A stretch of 64,000 nt of DNA from Methylocystaceae bacterium (GTDB lineage Bacteria > Pseudomonadota > Alphaproteobacteria > Rhodospirillales > Terasakiellaceae): positions 682,001-746,000 of the forward strand of contig JABXIG010000003.1 of the NCBI GenBank assembly GCA_013373205.1, written 5' to 3'. The notes under the pieces are model-generated. The model worked only from the letters and a program-made list of their open reading frames with translations, ran no database searches and was not told the DNA's origin. Shown here piece after piece: positions 37,536 through 45,250 of the stretch. The translations under genes and the position numbers were made by a program. Every line of letters begins with the position of its first letter. Positions within the stretch are counted from its first letter, which is position 1.

Positions 37536-37898
37536 ATGATAGATTTTTGTTTGCTTTGTGACAAAGGATGCCTTGTGGATCATATTCTCCCATTAAGCCC
37601 CCAGCACGTAGATTGCGCGATTGCCGTGATGCTGAAAATTCTGGATGGTAAATGTAAGATGATTGAAGATGAAAAAATCATTATGGCGGCTTTATATGAA
37701 CGGGTGAAAGGTGATCCTTCTTTAAGGTTGGGCAAAACCCATCATGATTTGATTGCACAGGCTCAAAAAACTGGGCTGTCTGAAGAGATGCGTGGCAGGA
37801 TTTATGAACAACGCCTTTATGCCGAAACCATGATTTCCCGGCCTGTCATGAAAGCATTCAAGGCCATGCTCCGAGCTGAAGGGGTGCTGGATCAATGA
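37536..37898 (+). CDS. Hypothetical protein, first gene of a redox gene set
   Basis: A 120-residue protein of no recognised family. It begins with a Cys-rich patch, MIDFCLLCDKGCLVDH, has another Cys near residue 27 and 40, then a charged helical C-terminal half. The N-terminal CxxCxxxC could bind metal, but the pattern is not diagnostic. Its stop overlaps the next gene's start (ATGA), so they are co-translated. Confidence 0.65.
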   Translation: MIDFCLLCDKGCLVDHILPLSPQHVDCAIAVMLKILDGKCKMIEDEKIIMAALYERVKGDPSLRLGKTHHDLIAQAQKTGLSEEMRGRIYEQRLYAETMISRPVMKAFKAMLRAEGVLDQ

Positions 37899-39394
37899 GT
37901 GCGTTAAAAGAGATTTATCGCTATCACGAAATCACCAAACACCGCCTGAACGCCTATGCGCCGGCACCGGGATTCCTGGATTGGGACAGCCAGCCGAACC
38001 CGTTTCGTCGCTATGATGATTGTGAAGAAATTTTGTTGCCGATTGTGGATCATCCTGCAGAAAGTACCGATTGGAATGAAGAAAATATCGCACGTTTTTT
38101 AGGTTTAAGTATGGGCTTAAGCGGCTGGAAAGTCATGGGGCCGGATCGCTGGTCTTTACGTATGACCCCCAGCAGCGGCAACCTGCATCCAACCGAATGT
38201 TATCTGGCGTCTTTTTTAGAAGGCAGGCTTTATCATTATAATGTGCTGAACCATAGTCTGGAACTGCGCGCATCGGATATGTGCGGGGACCATGATGGGG
38301 CCTTTGGCGCGGTGGGCCTAAGCAGCATTACCTGGCGGGAAGAATGGAAATATGGGGAACGGGCGTACCGTTATTGCCAGTTGGATGTAGGGCATGCCAT
38401 TGGCACGATGCTCTATAGTGCTCACTTGTTGGGCTGGACGGTGACGCCCTTGCTAGATTTAAGCGATGATCAACTGTCCGGATTTTTGGGGCTGAACCAA
38501 CTGGAAGATTTTGACGGCGTAGAACAAGAAGAACCGGATATTTTGCTTTTGATCGGCCCTAAAGGCTGTGGGGTAAAGGAGCCTTTATTCTTTCAAAACT
38601 GGTACGGAAAACCCAATAAACTCAGCCCGGAAAAAGTCGCTTGGCCGGAAATCTGTCGCCTGAAAAAATATGTGGAAAAACAGGCTCATATGTCGGCAAA
38701 GACTGTGGATGTTCAGCCCGACTGGATGAGTGATCGACAGAAAGCCATCTCGTTCATTCAAAACCGTCGCTCTGCACAGAGGATGTTAAAAGAAGACTCC
38801 GTGATCGGTTATGACGATTTTAAAAGGATGCTTGAAAACCTTAAAACTGTTCAGTTGTTTGATCCGGCCATCAGTCTTGTCTTCTTTATCCATAACGTGG
38901 AAGGGCTTGCACCGGGACTTTATTTTTATGAAAGAAAAGACGGGCATCAGGATGAAATTTCCCATTTATGTGCCGTTGATTTTTCATGGCAGCCGGAAGG
39001 AAAGATTGCAGGACTTTATCAGCTGCAAACGAATGTTGATGTCAGAAAAATCGCCTCCCAACTATCCTGCCATCAAGGTATTGCAGGGCATGGGGCTTTT
39101 GCGGTTTCGATGTTGGCAGATTTCAAGGTGATGGATGAATGGGGCGCATGGGTCTATCGCAGACTTCATTGGGAAGCGGGGCTGCTTGGACAGGCGCTTT
39201 ATCTGGAAGCGGAAGCTTGTGGGCTAAACGGTACAGGGATTGGTTGTTTCTTTGATGATGAAGTCCATGGGCTTTTGGGATTGTCCACAACAGAAGGCCC
39301 CTGGCAGGTGATCTATCATTTTACAGTAGGGAAGGCGCGTATTGATCCGCGTTTGCAGGATGAACCTGCTTTTTCCCATTTGTCGTATAGGTAA
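37895..39394 (+). CDS. SagB/ThcOx-family nitroreductase-like oxidoreductase
   Basis: A 499-residue protein with two nitroreductase-like halves. The first (about 60-270) holds the FMN-binding pattern LRMTPSSGNLHPTECYLAS; the second (about 290-490) has QNRRSAQRMLKEDS and GLNGTGIGCFFDDEVHGLLG. SagB/ThcOx proteins oxidise azolines in peptide natural products, but many members lie outside such clusters, and no YcaO cyclodehydratase or precursor peptide is present here, so the substrate is unknown. Translationally coupled to the upstream small protein; the GST gene follows after 93 bases. Confidence 0.87.
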   Translation: MSALKEIYRYHEITKHRLNAYAPAPGFLDWDSQPNPFRRYDDCEEILLPIVDHPAESTDWNEENIARFLGLSMGLSGWKVMGPDRWSLRMTPSSGNLHPTECYLASFLEGRLYHYNVLNHSLELRASDMCGDHDGAFGAVGLSSITWREEWKYGERAYRYCQLDVGHAIGTMLYSAHLLGWTVTPLLDLSDDQLSGFLGLNQLEDFDGVEQEEPDILLLIGPKGCGVKEPLFFQNWYGKPNKLSPEKVAWPEICRLKKYVEKQAHMSAKTVDVQPDWMSDRQKAISFIQNRRSAQRMLKEDSVIGYDDFKRMLENLKTVQLFDPAISLVFFIHNVEGLAPGLYFYERKDGHQDEISHLCAVDFSWQPEGKIAGLYQLQTNVDVRKIASQLSCHQGIAGHGAFAVSMLADFKVMDEWGAWVYRRLHWEAGLLGQALYLEAEACGLNGTGIGCFFDDEVHGLLGLSTTEGPWQVIYHFTVGKARIDPRLQDEPAFSHLSYR

Positions 39395-39487
39395 CAAGGT
39401 TAAATCATTAATTTCAATATGTTAAATATGGCTCACCCTTTGCATGCATGGATATATTCAAGCGACTTGCAGGGAAAAGAAGAAGCC

Positions 39488-40132
39488 ATGATGGAATTTT
39501 ATATGACGCCGGGGTCCTGTTCGACCGGGATTCATATTTTGTTGGAAGAATTGGAACAGGTCTTTGCGGCCAATATCATCAATATGCCAAAGGGTGATCA
39601 TCTCACAACTGAATATAAAGCCATTAACCCCAAGGGCACCATTCCGGCATTGAAACTGGATAGCGGCGATGTGTTGACTGATTTTTCAGCTATTGCCTGG
39701 TGGCTGGCTTCGCGCCATCCGAAAAAACGGTTATTGCCACAAAATCAGGTGGATCAGGCGCGTTGTCTGGAGATCATGAATTTCGTCACATCAACCCTGC
39801 ATGGTCAAGGCTATACCCGAATCTTTGCCCCTGAAAAATATATGCTGCGCGATGATGACCTGGGTCAGGTCAAGGCAAAGGGACTGGAACGGGTTAAAAG
39901 CAGTTTTGATGTCGTCGCACAGTATCTAACGGGTTGTGACGGGTTGGTGTTTGATCATTTGACCATCGCAGATGCAGCCTTGTTTTATGTGGAATTCTGG
40001 GCAGATCGTAGTGATATCCAAATGCCTGTTGTGTGCGAACAACATTATCAGACCATGTGCACCCGTCCTATCGTACAACAAGTGCTGGCCGAAGAAGGTT
40101 ATCGCCTTAATCAAGGGGCACAAAGCTTATGA
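39488..40132 (+). CDS. Glutathione S-transferase family protein
   Basis: A 214-residue GST. The N-terminal thioredoxin-like domain (YMTPGSCSTGIHILLEELE; NPKGTIPALKLDSG; LTDFSAIAWWLA) and helical C-terminal domain (FDHLTIADAALFYVEFW) are intact. The Ser/Cys in PGSCS is at the catalytic position, as in beta-class enzymes. Two adjacent ATGs (39488, 39491) follow AAGAAG; the upstream in-frame extension from 39419 is not family-like. Its last four bases overlap the next gene's ATG. Confidence 0.87.
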   Translation: MMEFYMTPGSCSTGIHILLEELEQVFAANIINMPKGDHLTTEYKAINPKGTIPALKLDSGDVLTDFSAIAWWLASRHPKKRLLPQNQVDQARCLEIMNFVTSTLHGQGYTRIFAPEKYMLRDDDLGQVKAKGLERVKSSFDVVAQYLTGCDGLVFDHLTIADAALFYVEFWADRSDIQMPVVCEQHYQTMCTRPIVQQVLAEEGYRLNQGAQSL

Positions 40133-41457
40133 AGCATTTTCTTGACTGGTCTAAATATCAGGATGCGGGTATGGGGGATGCTTACGCTGATATCCCCAAA
40201 CACGGGGGTGATTTTGCTAAGGCAATCGCGGTTTGTATCAATAGTCGCCAGTGTGAAACCCAAAATAAACTGGTTATGTGCCCAAGCTATAAAGTCACAG
40301 GCAATGCAAACCTGTCTACAGGTGGGCGTGTGCGCATGTTGAAAGCAGCACTTGGGAACGATCATTATGAAGATGCATTATCCCAAGTAGACCTGCAAGA
40401 AGCCATGGATTTGTGCGTGGCCTGTAAAGGATGTAAGCGTGAATGTGAAAATAACGTGGATATGCCGCTTATCAAGGCAGAATATCTTGCACAGAAAGGT
40501 CATAAAAAAGGCTATAGTCTGCGCGCGAAATTGCTGGCAAATACGCCCAAATATGTCTCGGCCTCCGGTTGGTTTTCTACGATGATCAAACTTCGTAATC
40601 GAAATAAACTGCTTGCGCGATTGATGGAGAAAACGGTTGGGATTGCAGCAGACGTGCCTTTGCCGGAACCTGTGAAGAATAATTTCCAGGACCGCCCTTT
40701 GCATCAAGAAAATGACAAGCCGGAAGTGGTTCTGTTTATCGATACCTTTGCGCGATATTTTGAACCTAAGATTGTCGAAGCGGCGCAAGATATTCTGCAC
40801 ATAACGGGCTATCGGTGCAACCTGGTCCAAGCCCCCAAAGGGGAAAAGCCCTTGTGTTGCGGACGGACTTATCTGGCACAAGGGATGATCGATCAAGCGC
40901 GGACTGAAGTAAAACGCTTATGTGAAAGTTTGTTGGGTCATGTGGAAGCCGGACGGGTCATCATCGGGTTGGAAGCATCTTGCGTGTTGGGTTTACGTGA
41001 TGATGCGAAGGCACTGGGACTGGGGGAACTGGTTGAAAAGGTCGCGGCCCAGACTGTCTTGTTTGAAGAGTTTATTTCCAAAGAAATTCGAGCCAAACGC
41101 TTTGATGCGGAATTTGTTTCTCAAGCAGGGAAGAAAACTCTGATCCATGGTCATTGTCATCAAAAGGCCGTCGGGGCGATGAAGGCCATGCGCCGGGTGT
41201 TAAAGCTGATCCCGGATCATGATTTTGAAATTATTGAATCTGGATGTTGCGGCATGGCAGGAAGTTTCGGGATTGAGGCGGAACATGTCGAAGTCGCTGA
41301 TAAGATGGCCGAAGCGGCGCTAATGCCGCGCCTGCGTGAAAATCCAGATGCGCGTGTGGTCGCCAATGGTTTTTCCTGTCGATCGCAGATGCGTGCGAAA
41401 AAGGATGAGCGTGCGCAACACCTCGCGATTTTCCTGAGAGACTGTATGAAGATGTAA
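40129..41457 (+). CDS. Stand-alone Fe-S oxidoreductase (GlpC/HdrD-like, CCG domains)
   Basis: A 442-residue protein. It has a ferredoxin-like dicluster region: Cys36 and Cys42 followed by CPSY at 51, then C96-x2-C99-x2-C102-x3-C106. Two CCG domains follow (PLCCGRTYLAQG; ESGCCGMAGSFG). This order and the CPSYKVTGNANLSTGGRVRML stretch match the C-terminal half of large FAD/Fe-S 2-hydroxyacid dehydrogenases (the D-2-hydroxyglutarate/D-lactate class), but the FAD half is missing, so it needs a partner. It overlaps the GST gene by four bases. Confidence 0.85.
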   Translation: MKHFLDWSKYQDAGMGDAYADIPKHGGDFAKAIAVCINSRQCETQNKLVMCPSYKVTGNANLSTGGRVRMLKAALGNDHYEDALSQVDLQEAMDLCVACKGCKRECENNVDMPLIKAEYLAQKGHKKGYSLRAKLLANTPKYVSASGWFSTMIKLRNRNKLLARLMEKTVGIAADVPLPEPVKNNFQDRPLHQENDKPEVVLFIDTFARYFEPKIVEAAQDILHITGYRCNLVQAPKGEKPLCCGRTYLAQGMIDQARTEVKRLCESLLGHVEAGRVIIGLEASCVLGLRDDAKALGLGELVEKVAAQTVLFEEFISKEIRAKRFDAEFVSQAGKKTLIHGHCHQKAVGAMKAMRRVLKLIPDHDFEIIESGCCGMAGSFGIEAEHVEVADKMAEAALMPRLRENPDARVVANGFSCRSQMRAKKDERAQHLAIFLRDCMKM

Positions 41458-41533: not shown

Positions 41534-43444
41534 TTAAGAATTAGCAGCTTTAGCAACAGGAGCTTCGTTTAAACGCCATGTGCCTTTACCAGCCAGCTTG
41601 GCTTTATACATGGCTTCATCAGCACGGTGAATAACGGCTTCGGGTTCTTCAGCCATAGCTTTGGTGCCACCAAAAACAGCAATCCCGATAGAGGCGCCGA
41701 TCTCGGCGGTGCCATGGGGCAGGGTGAAATCATCGCACAAGGTATCGATTAAACGGTTGGCAAGTGTTTTCAAGCCTTCAAGGCTTTCAAGCTCGCTAAC
41801 CAGCAGAGCAAATTCATCCCCCCCAAGTCGCGCAGGAATATCATTGTCACGCACGACTTCACGTAGGCGTGACGCCACCATTTTTAATAATTCGTCACCC
41901 GCTTCATGTCCTAGGTTGTCATTAACGGCCTTGAAGCCATCAAGATCCATAAACAGGATGGCCCCTTGGCGCAAATTGCGTTGACTGGCCGACAAAGCAC
42001 GGTGCACACTATCAAAGAAACTGCGGCGATTGGGAAGGCCGGTTAGCGCATCAGTACTGGCAAGCTTGGTCAGTTGATCCATGGCTTCCTGACGGCGATG
42101 GGTTTCTGTGCGGACTTTATGAAGAACCGCATTATAGAAGGTGGCAATTTCAGAAGCTTCGGTTTCGCGTTCGGTATCCACGTCGCGGTCAAAATTACCT
42201 GTACGTGCCTGAAAATCCATTTGTGTGATGAGATCAAGAAGGGAAGAAGACGCATTATGTTCAGCGATATTAAGGCCTAAACGTTCTTCTTCGGGGGTGA
42301 CGCGAAAGGGGATAAGCTTATCGACAAGTCGAAAGAGGATATAACTGCTTGGCAGAGAAAATAAACCGATAACAGCAATACCTAAAAGCTGTACGCCAAG
42401 CTGGGTCAAGGTATCACCTGTAGGTAGGTTTTCGGCAGGGACAAATAATGCAACGGAAACGGTTCCCCATATCCCGGCACAAAGATGGGCGGGTACGGCA
42501 CCGATGACATCATCAATTTCCCATATTTCCAACAGGCGCATGCTGCCCAGGGTCAACGCGCCGGCCACAAAACCAATAATGATTGAATCCATAGCGCCAA
42601 TCAGATGGGCGCCTGCACAACTGGCAACGAGCCCGGCAACTGTTCCGTTTACGATGCCGTGGACCGTGGGGCGTTTTGTTGCAATCCAGCTATAGGTAAT
42701 GCCGCCAAGGCCACCCAAGGCACCTGCAAGGGCGGTGTTGGCGATGATCAGCGGGACCTGATTGTTGATGGCAAGGGTAGACCCGCCGTTAAAGCCGAAA
42801 AAGCCGAACAATAATAGAAAGACGCCTAAAACAGCCATGGGCAGGTTATGGCCTTCGATTTCGTGACCATTTACGCCAAAGCGACCAATGCGTGGGCCGA
42901 TGACCAGAATGGCAGACAATGCAATCCAGCCGCCAACTCCATGGACAACGGTAGAGCCTGCAAAATCTACAAAACCCAGCTTACCAAGCCAGCCGTTGAC
43001 TTCGCCGATATGGGCGCCATTCCAGACCCAATGGCCGACGATGGGATAGATAAATCCAGCAATGACGACGGTGACAAAAATATAGCCGACAAAGCGCATA
43101 CGTTCTGACACAGCACCGGAAATAATAGTTGCCGCCGTTCCGCAGAACATAATCTGAAAAATAAAGAAACTAATATCGTGGGGGGAGAGGTTTTCATAGG
43201 TCGCAATACTAGGGATCCCGATGACCCCACCGTAGGACGGACCAAACATTATGCCAAAGCCAAACAAGGTAAACAGCAGGCAAGAGATACAAAAATCCAT
43301 CAGGTTTTTGATGGCCACGTGAATGGAGTTTTTTGCGCGGACAAAACCACTTTCAAGACAGGTGAACCCTGCTTGCATGACCGCGACAAGAAAGGCGGCA
43401 ATCAACACCCAGGTAACATGTGGTGAAAGCAGTTCTGATTCCAT
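41534..43444 (-). CDS. Ammonium transporter fused to a GGDEF diguanylate cyclase domain
   Basis: A 636-residue fusion. Residues 1-385 form an Amt/Rh channel with about 11 helices. Asp160, His168 (in STVVHGVGG) and His320 correspond to the ammonium-site Asp160 and pore twin-His of E. coli AmtB. A linker helix (about 430-460) leads to a GGDEF domain (461-625) with intact GGDEF at 541-545 and an RxxD inhibitory site (RDND, 532-535) five residues before it. It may couple ammonium binding or transport to cyclic-di-GMP synthesis. AAGGGA lies eight bases before ATG 43444; the longer frame to 43636 is rejected. No glnK gene is adjacent. Confidence 0.93.
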   Translation of the reverse strand: MESELLSPHVTWVLIAAFLVAVMQAGFTCLESGFVRAKNSIHVAIKNLMDFCISCLLFTLFGFGIMFGPSYGGVIGIPSIATYENLSPHDISFFIFQIMFCGTAATIISGAVSERMRFVGYIFVTVVIAGFIYPIVGHWVWNGAHIGEVNGWLGKLGFVDFAGSTVVHGVGGWIALSAILVIGPRIGRFGVNGHEIEGHNLPMAVLGVFLLLFGFFGFNGGSTLAINNQVPLIIANTALAGALGGLGGITYSWIATKRPTVHGIVNGTVAGLVASCAGAHLIGAMDSIIIGFVAGALTLGSMRLLEIWEIDDVIGAVPAHLCAGIWGTVSVALFVPAENLPTGDTLTQLGVQLLGIAVIGLFSLPSSYILFRLVDKLIPFRVTPEEERLGLNIAEHNASSSLLDLITQMDFQARTGNFDRDVDTERETEASEIATFYNAVLHKVRTETHRRQEAMDQLTKLASTDALTGLPNRRSFFDSVHRALSASQRNLRQGAILFMDLDGFKAVNDNLGHEAGDELLKMVASRLREVVRDNDIPARLGGDEFALLVSELESLEGLKTLANRLIDTLCDDFTLPHGTAEIGASIGIAVFGGTKAMAEEPEAVIHRADEAMYKAKLAGKGTWRLNEAPVAKAANS

Positions 43445-43532: not shown

Positions 43533-44495
43533 TTATGTTTGCTTAAATAATAGGCGGTCAAATGCCTGTTTTGGCATCTTTTTGACGAGTAATCCCATAA
43601 AAAAGAGAATAATAAATGAGAAAATAAACCGTCCAATTAGAATGCCGCTTAAATCTGCACCTAGGGCAAAAATCAATAAAGTATCTTCGATCATACTGTG
43701 AAAGAGGCACATAAAACTGAGCGAGAGGAAGATATCCTGACTCGACATTTTGCCTTCTTTAGCTTCGCGAATGATTAAGGCCCCCCCGTACCCTAGCCCG
43801 AGCATGACACCGATCATGGTGACCGGTATGGCGTGTTTGGAAATACCCATTAGTCCCAATACAGGGGCTAAGCCTTTAGAGATAAAATCTGTGACTTTTA
43901 AGGCTTCCAATATTTTTAAGGCGAGGATTAAAACAAGGATGACCCAAAAGATGGAGAAGAGCGAAATGGCGCTGTCTTGTGTCCATTGCAGCCATCCTGC
44001 GTCCACTGCTGTAGAAGGCAGCCAGTCAATGGTTGCGTTTTCTTGTAGAACTTGAAAGCCCTGATAAATCAGGTTCAGGATTGCCCCATAAACCAAAGCT
44101 CCGACAATACGTAGCAAGGTCGTGGCAATCAGGCTGGGTCCGGCTTTTTGCACGATACGTTGTTCAATGGGAAGACTGTGGGCAATCAGGATCATGGACC
44201 CAAGTACAGTGATTTGAGCTACACTCATGGGGGCTTCGGGCAAAAGGGCAACCAGGGTGACCATGCCGGCATAGATATTGACCAACATGGCCGTTGTCCA
44301 GATAATCCCGGCTTCTGGGGGCAGGCCGACCACATCCATGAAAGGTGTAAACATCAGGCTGATATGGTCAATCAGACCAAATTCTACCCCCAGGCGCACA
44401 ATAACCATGATTGGCACCATAACTTTTAAAAGTTCCCAATAGAGGAAAATACTGTCGCGTACAGGTTTTTTAAGCCAATCAATAAAATGCTGCAT
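43533..44495 (-). CDS. Gate-domain (nucleoside recognition) membrane protein
   Basis: A 320-residue membrane protein with about eight helices in two repeats, typical of the Gate/nucleoside-recognition and YjiG/SpmA group (IIWTTAMLVNIYAGMVTLVAL; GVMLGLGYGGALIIREAKEG). Substrate unknown. MQHFIDWLKKP after AAAGG is the likely start; 37 upstream in-frame codons run through the shared promoter. Divergent from the Lrp/AsnC gene with a palindrome between, so probably controlled by it. Confidence 0.83.
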   Translation of the reverse strand: MQHFIDWLKKPVRDSIFLYWELLKVMVPIMVIVRLGVEFGLIDHISLMFTPFMDVVGLPPEAGIIWTTAMLVNIYAGMVTLVALLPEAPMSVAQITVLGSMILIAHSLPIEQRIVQKAGPSLIATTLLRIVGALVYGAILNLIYQGFQVLQENATIDWLPSTAVDAGWLQWTQDSAISLFSIFWVILVLILALKILEALKVTDFISKGLAPVLGLMGISKHAIPVTMIGVMLGLGYGGALIIREAKEGKMSSQDIFLSLSFMCLFHSMIEDTLLIFALGADLSGILIGRFIFSFIILFFMGLLVKKMPKQAFDRLLFKQT

Positions 44496-44562
44496 GGGTG
44501 GGCCTTTGTTTTGAAAATTTGCGTAGACCTTAACGCAAAAGACCTGAAATATGTGGTCAAAT

Positions 44563-44580
44563 ATTGCATATATATGCAAT
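44563..44580. promoter_or_regulatory. Lrp/AsnC operator between divergent genes
   Basis: ATTGCATATATATGCAAT is a perfect 18-base palindrome in the 93-base gap between the Gate-domain gene and the Lrp/AsnC gene. A further half-site, ATTGCAT, lies at 44584-44590 and runs into the regulator's ATG. A symmetrical A/T-rich site of this length fits Lrp-family binding. Confidence 0.7.
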
Positions 44581-44588
44581 AATATTGC

Positions 44589-45023
44589 ATGGATAAGATT
44601 GATCATAAGATAATCGGCATTCTGAGGCAGGATGCTGAACTGACAAATGCGGCTTTGGCTGAACAGGTCAACTTGTCGCCCAGCAGCTGTTTACGCCGGG
44701 TTCAGAAGTTGAAACAGCAAGGTATCATCAGAAAGATGATTTGTGTGATTGATGATAAGGCCCTTGGTCGAAACTTGCAGGCCATCGTGGAAGTGGATCT
44801 GGACCGCCACGGCCATGCCAGCTTTGTCGCCTTTCAGGAAAAGGTCAAAAACGAAGATGCCATCATCAAGGCGTTTGGCATTACAGGGGACAGTGATGTG
44901 GTATTGTTTCTAAACCTGACTGATATGGATGAATATCAGGATTTATGTGATCGTTTTTTTGATCGAGATAAAAACATTATCCGCTTTCGCACCAGTTTTG
45001 TCATGCGTCAGATCAAGGATTAG
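44589..45023 (+). CDS. Lrp/AsnC-family transcriptional regulator
   Basis: A 144-residue regulator with the winged helix at about 1-55 (DHKIIGILRQDAELTNAALAE; LSPSSCLRRVQKLKQQG) and an AsnC/RAM ligand domain (about 68-144; GITGDSDVVLFLNLTDMDEY). It forms octamers or dimers and senses amino acids in known relatives. The divergent membrane protein is its likely target. Its stop overlaps the convergent PilZ-like gene by four bases. Confidence 0.92.
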   Translation: MDKIDHKIIGILRQDAELTNAALAEQVNLSPSSCLRRVQKLKQQGIIRKMICVIDDKALGRNLQAIVEVDLDRHGHASFVAFQEKVKNEDAIIKAFGITGDSDVVLFLNLTDMDEYQDLCDRFFDRDKNIIRFRTSFVMRQIKD

Positions 45024-45250
45024 GCTGTTCCGTAAATAGCCAGATTATAAAGGAATTCGCTCAAGCAATCCTGATCATCATTAAACTGTAGTCCGCAGTC
45101 TTTACCATGGACCCAAACAACCTTGGCCCCACCTGTTGATATGTCCAGAACAGTGGCTTCATGTGTGTCTTCACCAAAAAACAGAATGGCTTTGACATTG
45201 GTTTGATGATGTCTTGTTCTTCTGTTTTCGATAGTTGCTTGTTTTAACAT
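45020..45250 (-). CDS. Short PilZ-like protein
   Basis: A 76-residue protein with the two PilZ motifs in order: RRTRHH (RxxxR-type) near residue 9 and DISTGGAKV (DxSxxG) near 37. Full PilZ domains are about 95-110 residues, so this form lacks the last strands. It may still bind cyclic di-GMP, or be a degenerate copy. The frame is open 15 codons upstream, with a TTG; MLKQATIENRR, after AGAGAAAGAACG, is preferred. The Amt-GGDEF gene lies about 1.6 kb away. Confidence 0.65.
   Translation of the reverse strand: MLKQATIENRRTRHHQTNVKAILFFGEDTHEATVLDISTGGAKVVWVHGKDCGLQFNDDQDCLSEFLYNLAIYGTA

Follow-up and report, generated by a model that had tools for sequence, protein, structure and literature searches.

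An ammonium transporter-diguanylate cyclase fusion of the Terasakiella group, probably an ammonium receptor

A fusion of an ammonium transporter (Amt) domain with a diguanylate cyclase (GGDEF) domain is already known from Shewanella denitrificans, whose Amt-GGDEF protein, Sd-Amt1, has three Protein Data Bank (PDB) entries released on 2024-06-12 (8qj3, 8qj4, and 8qpf), with the titles 'Receptor Sd-Amt1 (OFF-state)', '(ON-state)', and 'Ammonium Transporter Amt1 from Shewanella denitrificans'; the chains compared here comprise about 400 residues, corresponding to the Amt half. In Ks-Amt5 of Candidatus Kuenenia stuttgartiensis (PDB 6eu6), an Amt receptor fused to a histidine kinase, the structure holds two NH4+ ions in an intramembrane site formed by Q24, E31, N47, D50, T51, T109, and T112, and the known pore residues are kept, yet ammonium transport is inefficient; the source also describes the protein as having no typical transducer of the HAMP sort (PMC5764959). 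AmtE of Azoarcus olearius BH72, with GGDEF/EAL domains, is called a likely transceptor and is 36-fold up during N2-fixing growth (PMC8467165). Here we analyze an Amt-GGDEF protein of 636 residues encoded at 41534..43444, minus strand, of a 64,000-nucleotide stretch (the window) from a bacterium of the Terasakiellaceae (assembly GCA_013373205.1, contig JABXIG010000003.1, positions 682,001 to 746,000).

Compared with these systems, the window protein is, by sequence, of the Sd-Amt1/Ks-Amt5 receptor kind. It is like Sd-Amt1 in its order of Amt, linker, and GGDEF (aligned over residues 11-621; 481.6 bits for 8qj3) and in its NH4+-site residues, Phe at 51 included, whereas Sd-Amt1 has GGEEF instead of GGDEF and, in the trees of both domains, belongs to a gammaproteobacterial clade distinct from that of Terasakiella. 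With Ks-Amt5 it shares the intramembrane NH4+ site, the fused output, and the kept pore residues, but not the kinase output nor the residues Tyr30, Thr51, and Thr112 (PMC5764959). AmtE, likened here by description only, also joins Amt to domains of cyclic di-GMP (c-di-GMP) metabolism, but its output is GGDEF/EAL and not GGDEF alone (PMC8467165). The stand-alone transporters E. coli AmtB and A. fulgidus Amt1 share the fold and pore residues but lack the Q24/E31/N47/D50 site. The remark of an earlier note on this DNA that Amt-GGDEF is less studied is thus overtaken by the deposited ON and OFF structures of Sd-Amt1 and by the published AmtE.

Fusion gene and conserved residues

The gene is a single minus-strand open reading frame (ORF) running from ATG to stop and preceded by an AAGGGA-like ribosome site; the longest plus-strand ORF overlapping it has 107 residues. 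Pfam places the Amt domain (PF00909) at residues 12-399 (42248..43411, minus strand; 376.8 bits against a cut-off of 23.2, profile positions 2-397 of 399) and the GGDEF domain (PF00990) at residues 462-620 (41585..42061, minus strand; 141.3 bits against 23.8), and alignment together with an AlphaFold model delimits between them a HAMP-like linker of about 55 residues (approximately 400-455; 42080..42247, minus strand). The amt model of NCBIfam exceeds its own cut-off (391.1 versus 343.3), and the DgcN/YfiN model stays under its own (178.6 versus 325), with an alignment that starts at residue 412 and takes in most of the linker. The ORF and Pfam bear out the earlier description of this protein as Amt fused to a complete GGDEF domain, and the residues named there, that is, Asp160, His168, His320, the GGDEF motif at 541-545, and an RxxD site, are all present.

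Full-length Terasakiella orthologs show 87% and 80% identity, the closest named genome being Terasakiella pusilla DSM 6293 (87% over 631 residues), which makes a species of Terasakiella the most likely source of the window. Codon differences from the T. pusilla ortholog at positions 1/2/3 number 50/18/218 in the Amt domain, 5/2/26 in the linker, and 20/12/94 in the GGDEF domain. Thus, third-position changes far outnumber second-position changes in all parts, which points to selection as protein on Amt, linker, and GGDEF alike, and this comparison indicates that both halves are under purifying selection. Because the orthologs are full length and the third-position excess runs through the gene, the fusion is not a product of chance, and the protein is a genuine, conserved, and probably active ammonium-receptor diguanylate cyclase.

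In the Amt half, the pore residues D160, H168, H320, F100, and F218 are present together with W141 and S222; F100, F218, W141, and S222 correspond to F107, F215, W148, and S219 of E. coli AmtB. Moreover, five of the seven NH4+-site residues of Ks-Amt5 are identical (Q24, E31, N47, D50, and T106), a sixth is similar (S109 for T112), and F51 replaces T51. In an alignment of 130 sensor-type Amt rows, which includes the window protein, Q24, E31, and N47 occur in every row, D50 and T106 (T109 of Ks-Amt5) in 129, and position 109 (T112) carries Ser in 126 rows and Ala in the remaining 4. These rows comprise 128 distinct ones, two pairs being identical over residues 21-380, and include one that ends before its output (L142) and one with no recognized output (L159); duplicates of the window or of named loci (L005-L007) and the end-cut rows L016, L019-L024, and L082 were left out of the count. 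Since this Ks-Amt5-type site is present here and missing from E. coli AmtB, in which, as in A. fulgidus Amt1, Q24, E31, N47, and D50 are absent, a receptor is the preferred reading of the Amt half, for which 'channel' is probably the wrong label.

The GGDEF half keeps the metal Asp and GTP-site residues of diguanylate cyclases. Indeed, among 24 Amt-GGDEF rows including Sd-Amt1, D500, D502, F504, K505, N508, D509, H513, D517, R539, G541, G542, E544, F545, D609, K616, and G619 are identical throughout, and position 543 is D in 7 and E in 17. Five residues ahead of the GGDEF motif lies R532-x-x-D535, whose motif and spacing are those of the inhibitory (I-) site; R532 and D535 occur in 14 of the 24 rows, namely all 7 alphaproteobacterial, 4 Vibrio, and 2 Enterovibrio rows and Sd-Amt1, and in none of the 10 Pseudoalteromonas rows.

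In a 37-row set, residues from about 385 to 455 align among the kinase, GGDEF, and GGDEF-EAL fusions, with the pattern GLNxxEH...GDFSxxVxVExxTExxxIAxxYNxVL, which resembles the second half of the HAMP consensus; the chemoreceptor fusions diverge more in the same region. Six of nine related linkers match PF00672 at 13.7-18.5 bits, below the 25-bit cut-off; matches below the cut-off include those of the linkers of planctomycete Amt-kinases (L110 and L113). In one Amt-chemoreceptor fusion (Amt-MCP; L178, 902-3361, minus strand), HAMP follows the Amt domain directly at 29.8 bits, and in another (L177), also directly after Amt, it reaches 22.7 bits, just below 25; at E 0.001, none was found in L012, L061, L085, or ten other Pfam-scanned relatives. 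The AlphaFold model (mean predicted local distance difference test, pLDDT, 88; predicted template modeling score, pTM, 0.65) gives a helix at 401-415, a loop, and a helix at 429-463 that enters the GGDEF domain. Judged from these matches and the model, the window linker is HAMP-like and likely of HAMP origin.

Proposed signaling route and its rivals

We consider the fusion to be a membrane ammonium receptor of the Sd-Amt1 kind that controls its own diguanylate cyclase, with a probability of about 0.8. The basis of this reading is the domain content, the residues present and their conservation, the homology to receptors of known structure, and the predicted shape of the linker; from these we infer that the protein binds ammonium, has lost transport, is enzymatically active with its two halves coupled, and forms trimers in which GGDEF domains pair. 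Known Amts are trimers, and the fusion would assemble in the same way. External NH4+ would enter the Amt vestibule and be held at the intramembrane site of Q24, E31, N47, D50, T106, and S109, without being efficiently passed on; its binding would bring about a conformational change that moves the cytoplasmic C-terminal segment. This movement may be relayed through the HAMP-like helix-loop-helix linker (about 400-455) and helix 429-463 into the cyclase, where it would alter the pairing of GGDEF domains and hence c-di-GMP synthesis, with product feedback presumably provided by the RxxD I-site. As a guess, activation by ammonium is slightly preferred to inhibition. The direct link from external ammonium to c-di-GMP that the earlier note had proposed thus stands as the best reading, backed by close homologs, with its channel probably exchanged for a receptor.

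Several observations weigh against this reading. The fusion is missing from three of the six genus genomes, and Pfam HAMP (PF00672) is not matched by the window's own linker at E values up to 10. Phe at residue 51 replaces a Thr ligand of Ks-Amt5 (Phe is found in Sd-Amt1 too), and Leu stands in place of Tyr30, which blocks the pore in Ks-Amt5, although F27 and F34, the other two plug residues, are kept. Among 13 stand-alone Amts, a sample biased to relatives of the query, E31 occurs in 13, N47 in 12, D50 in 8, and Q24 in 7, and 7 of the 13 carry the whole Q24/E31/N47/D50/T106 set; since these relatives share it, the site by sequence marks a wider subfamily and proves by itself neither sensing nor loss of transport. 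Furthermore, the genome has 45 GGDEF matches, of which 44 lie above the cut-off, so that the effect of the fusion on total c-di-GMP could be small.

The same residues lend some weight to a transceptor, that is, an ammonium transporter that still conducts and in which the transport cycle, and not static binding, would drive the cyclase: all pore residues checked are retained, the plug of Ks-Amt5 is incomplete owing to Leu at position 30, and stand-alone relatives have the same NH4+ site. Ks-Amt5, however, keeps all known pore residues without efficient transport (PMC5764959), and two other, non-fused Amts of the genome are available for uptake; we therefore hold a transceptor to be unlikely, though the most serious of the rivals. 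The signal could instead be the nitrogen state of the cell, with a PII protein docking on the Amt face and setting the cyclase. PII proteins of Azospirillum are reported to interact with AmtB and with c-di-GMP enzymes, and the genome has a PII gene, but this gene adjoins another Amt, none lies among the examined neighbors of the fusion, and the C-terminal face would be taken up by the linker and the GGDEF domain, which makes such docking quite improbable. Least probable by far is a degenerate or inactive relic; absence from half of the genus genomes would fit a dispensable gene, but both halves are under strong constraint, the catalytic and I-site residues are intact, and full-length relatives occur in six other alphaproteobacterial assemblies. 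A receptor cyclase of the Sd-Amt1 kind is thus preferred, and the fusion offers residue-level signs of it that are testable by mutation.

Distribution, paired receptors, and origin

Full-length fusions occur in three of the six genus genomes (G000, G003, and G005). In searches of a class sample of 385 genomes (E up to 1e-60) and a phylum sample of 398 genomes (E up to 1e-85), with at most three candidates scored per genome, the full-length match was in the window's own genome only. In a named collection, the patterns matched 300 stretches, relatives were encoded by 211, and the 80 best of these 211 were analyzed. By motif and length, the 80 include 21 Amt-GGDEF proteins of 629-647 residues, of which 6 are alphaproteobacterial (61-87% identity) and 15 are from Vibrio, Pseudoalteromonas, or Enterovibrio (39-41%), 49 proteins of about 1,010-1,030 residues with GGDEF and EAL motifs, 6 kinase fusions, and 4 other or cut-off ones. 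Pfam, applied to some of the 80 only, identified Amt-PAS-GGDEF-EAL (L107), HisKA_2 kinases (L110 and L113), and a protein ending in PAS domains (L144). Collectively, Amt with a HAMP-like linker is common to the related fusions, and the outputs vary: kinase, GGDEF-EAL, chemoreceptor, and nucleotide cyclase. A linker of this type, if common to different outputs, would be relevant to how output domains that work as dimers can be driven by a trimeric transporter fold.

Further architectures were seen in passing. A protein of the cyanobacterium Okeania (L154, 1683-5306, plus strand) joins Amt and PAS repeats to a guanylate/adenylate cyclase domain, a further receptor output; in a 526-residue protein (L159, 4974-6551, plus strand) only Amt was recognized, with no catalytic output domain, and another Amt fusion (L069, 733-2862, minus strand) has PAS only and no recognized catalytic output domain. 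At the equivalent of residue 34, a pore-plug position of Ks-Amt5, the Amt-GGDEF-EAL rows have Arg in 22 of 64 and Lys in 10 of 64, which places a positive charge close to the cation site.

The window's genome encodes four Amts, namely the fusion, two non-fused Amts on another contig (C56), one of them adjoined by the PII gene (P-II, 112.8 bits), and an Amt-MCP of up to 871 residues (Ammonium_transp, 344.7 bits; MCPsignal, 98.8 bits), which from its domains is a probable ammonium chemoreceptor. Amt-MCP frames, such as 1210-3825 of L002 and 1438-3828 of L011 (both plus strand), were found by motif in five of the six genus genomes, and Pfam agreed in the two checked. Another of the genus genomes, G003, likewise has both an Amt-GGDEF and an Amt-MCP. 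Two kinds of fusion are also paired elsewhere: Amt-GGDEF-EAL with Amt-MCP in G525 (the former by motif) and G129, and Amt-kinase with Amt-MCP in G040. No paper describing an Amt-MCP fusion was found by title or abstract start, in a search outside of which most subscription journals lie. With an Amt chemoreceptor in the same genome, one can ask whether movement and surface life answer to a single nutrient cue.

For the origin of the fusion, an Amt tree was built from 87 of 147 aligned rows, leaving out 44 of the 64 GGDEF-EAL rows and 16 near relatives of retained rows. All 75 sensor-type rows, including Ks-Amt5 and Sd-Amt1, are separated from the stand-alone Amts in the sample (98/93; 984 of 1000 bootstraps). 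The seven alphaproteobacterial Amt-GGDEF proteins form a clade (100/100) that groups with seven alphaproteobacterial Amt-kinases (94/89; 935 of 1000 bootstraps), and Sd-Amt1 with the gammaproteobacterial Amt-GGDEF proteins forms its own clade (100/100). The two Amt-GGDEF groups are joined in 0 of 1000 bootstraps in the Amt tree and in 0 of 1000 for the GGDEF domain alone, where Sd-Amt1 is taken within the gammaproteobacterial group and two generic PDB rows are left out of the GGDEF-domain count. A single Amt-GGDEF origin is thus disfavored by the bootstraps, though approximately unbiased (AU) tests do not reject it (p 0.108 for Amt, 0.108 for GGDEF, 0.174 for Amt with linker, and 0.069 for the concatenated, smaller row set), and the trees favor two separate origins.

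Taken together, these results suggest, tentatively and at a little under even odds, one ammonium-receptor chassis, an Amt with the NH4+ site and a HAMP-derived linker that domain models mostly fail to recognize, on which outputs were swapped repeatedly. Amt-GGDEF would have been built at least twice, from an Amt-kinase in the alphaproteobacteria and separately in the gammaproteobacterial Sd-Amt1 line, and Terasakiella would possess two receptors, for c-di-GMP and for chemotaxis, through which ammonium sets swimming and settling. The alphaproteobacterial clade of putative ammonium-receptor cyclases, with intact feedback sites, joins one solved gammaproteobacterial example; what the present fusion would add is this clade, an exchange of outputs on a common chassis, and the pairing with a chemoreceptor.

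Genes around the fusion

Upstream of the fusion by 88 bp and on the same strand lies a Gate/nucleoside-recognition membrane protein gene (43533..44606, minus strand), which adjoins Amt-GGDEF in all three Terasakiella-group loci carrying the fusion (window, L088, and L089) and is possibly co-transcribed with it, judging from this arrangement. An Lrp/AsnC regulator gene assigned by Pfam (44589..45023, plus strand) diverges from it and is followed by a shortened PilZ-like ORF of 76 residues from ATG (45020..45250, minus strand). The gene order in Terasakiella is leucine dehydrogenase, solute-binding protein, PilZ, Lrp, Gate, and then Amt-GGDEF where present; the solute-binding protein was not found at the locus in G002 and G004. 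The three genus genomes without the fusion have the Gate gene there, with RlmL about 1 kb on in two; in the third, RlmL was not found within the 14 kb taken.

The PilZ-like ORF is indeed 1.6 kb from the fusion, as the earlier note had said, but the effector role suggested for it there is not supported. It scores 21.6 bits against a Pfam cut-off of 22.5 and is 27 residues shorter than the T. pusilla copy (48 bits at its locus). Taking RxxxR and DxSxxG as the PilZ motifs for comparison, DISTGG is kept and the second Arg of RxxxR is His; the protein is probably no longer a c-di-GMP binder. No PilZ gene was found at the Amt-GGDEF-carrying L089 locus, and all three fusion-less genus genomes have PilZ above the cut-off at the locus (34.7, 42.1, and 46.1 bits). 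Thus, PilZ and Amt-GGDEF do not travel together, and PilZ as a dedicated effector was rejected, the ORF being placed outside the system by Pfam and the comparison with T. pusilla. A PilZ search of the genome listed one match, at another place.

NtrC/sigma-54 -24/-12-like sites show no excess in the window (33 with up to two mismatches against 46.5 expected by shuffling), and neither the 88-bp gap ahead of the fusion nor the 100 bp preceding the Gate gene contains one. The gap has a sigma-70-like match (43505-43476) that does not rise above noise (8 such matches in the region against 5.1 expected). Outside the genus, none of ten flanking genes was found around L090-L093, where the flanks go down to 254 bp on one side of L092, and Pfam on eight neighboring ORFs of L090, L091, and L093 gave no common gene. 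Beside the fusion, at 37895-41457 (plus strand), are genes for nitroreductase-like, glutathione S-transferase (GST)-like, and iron-sulfur (Fe-S) proteins; L089 has these genes at the same place, and neither L088 nor the stretches from the three fusion-less genus genomes yielded them.
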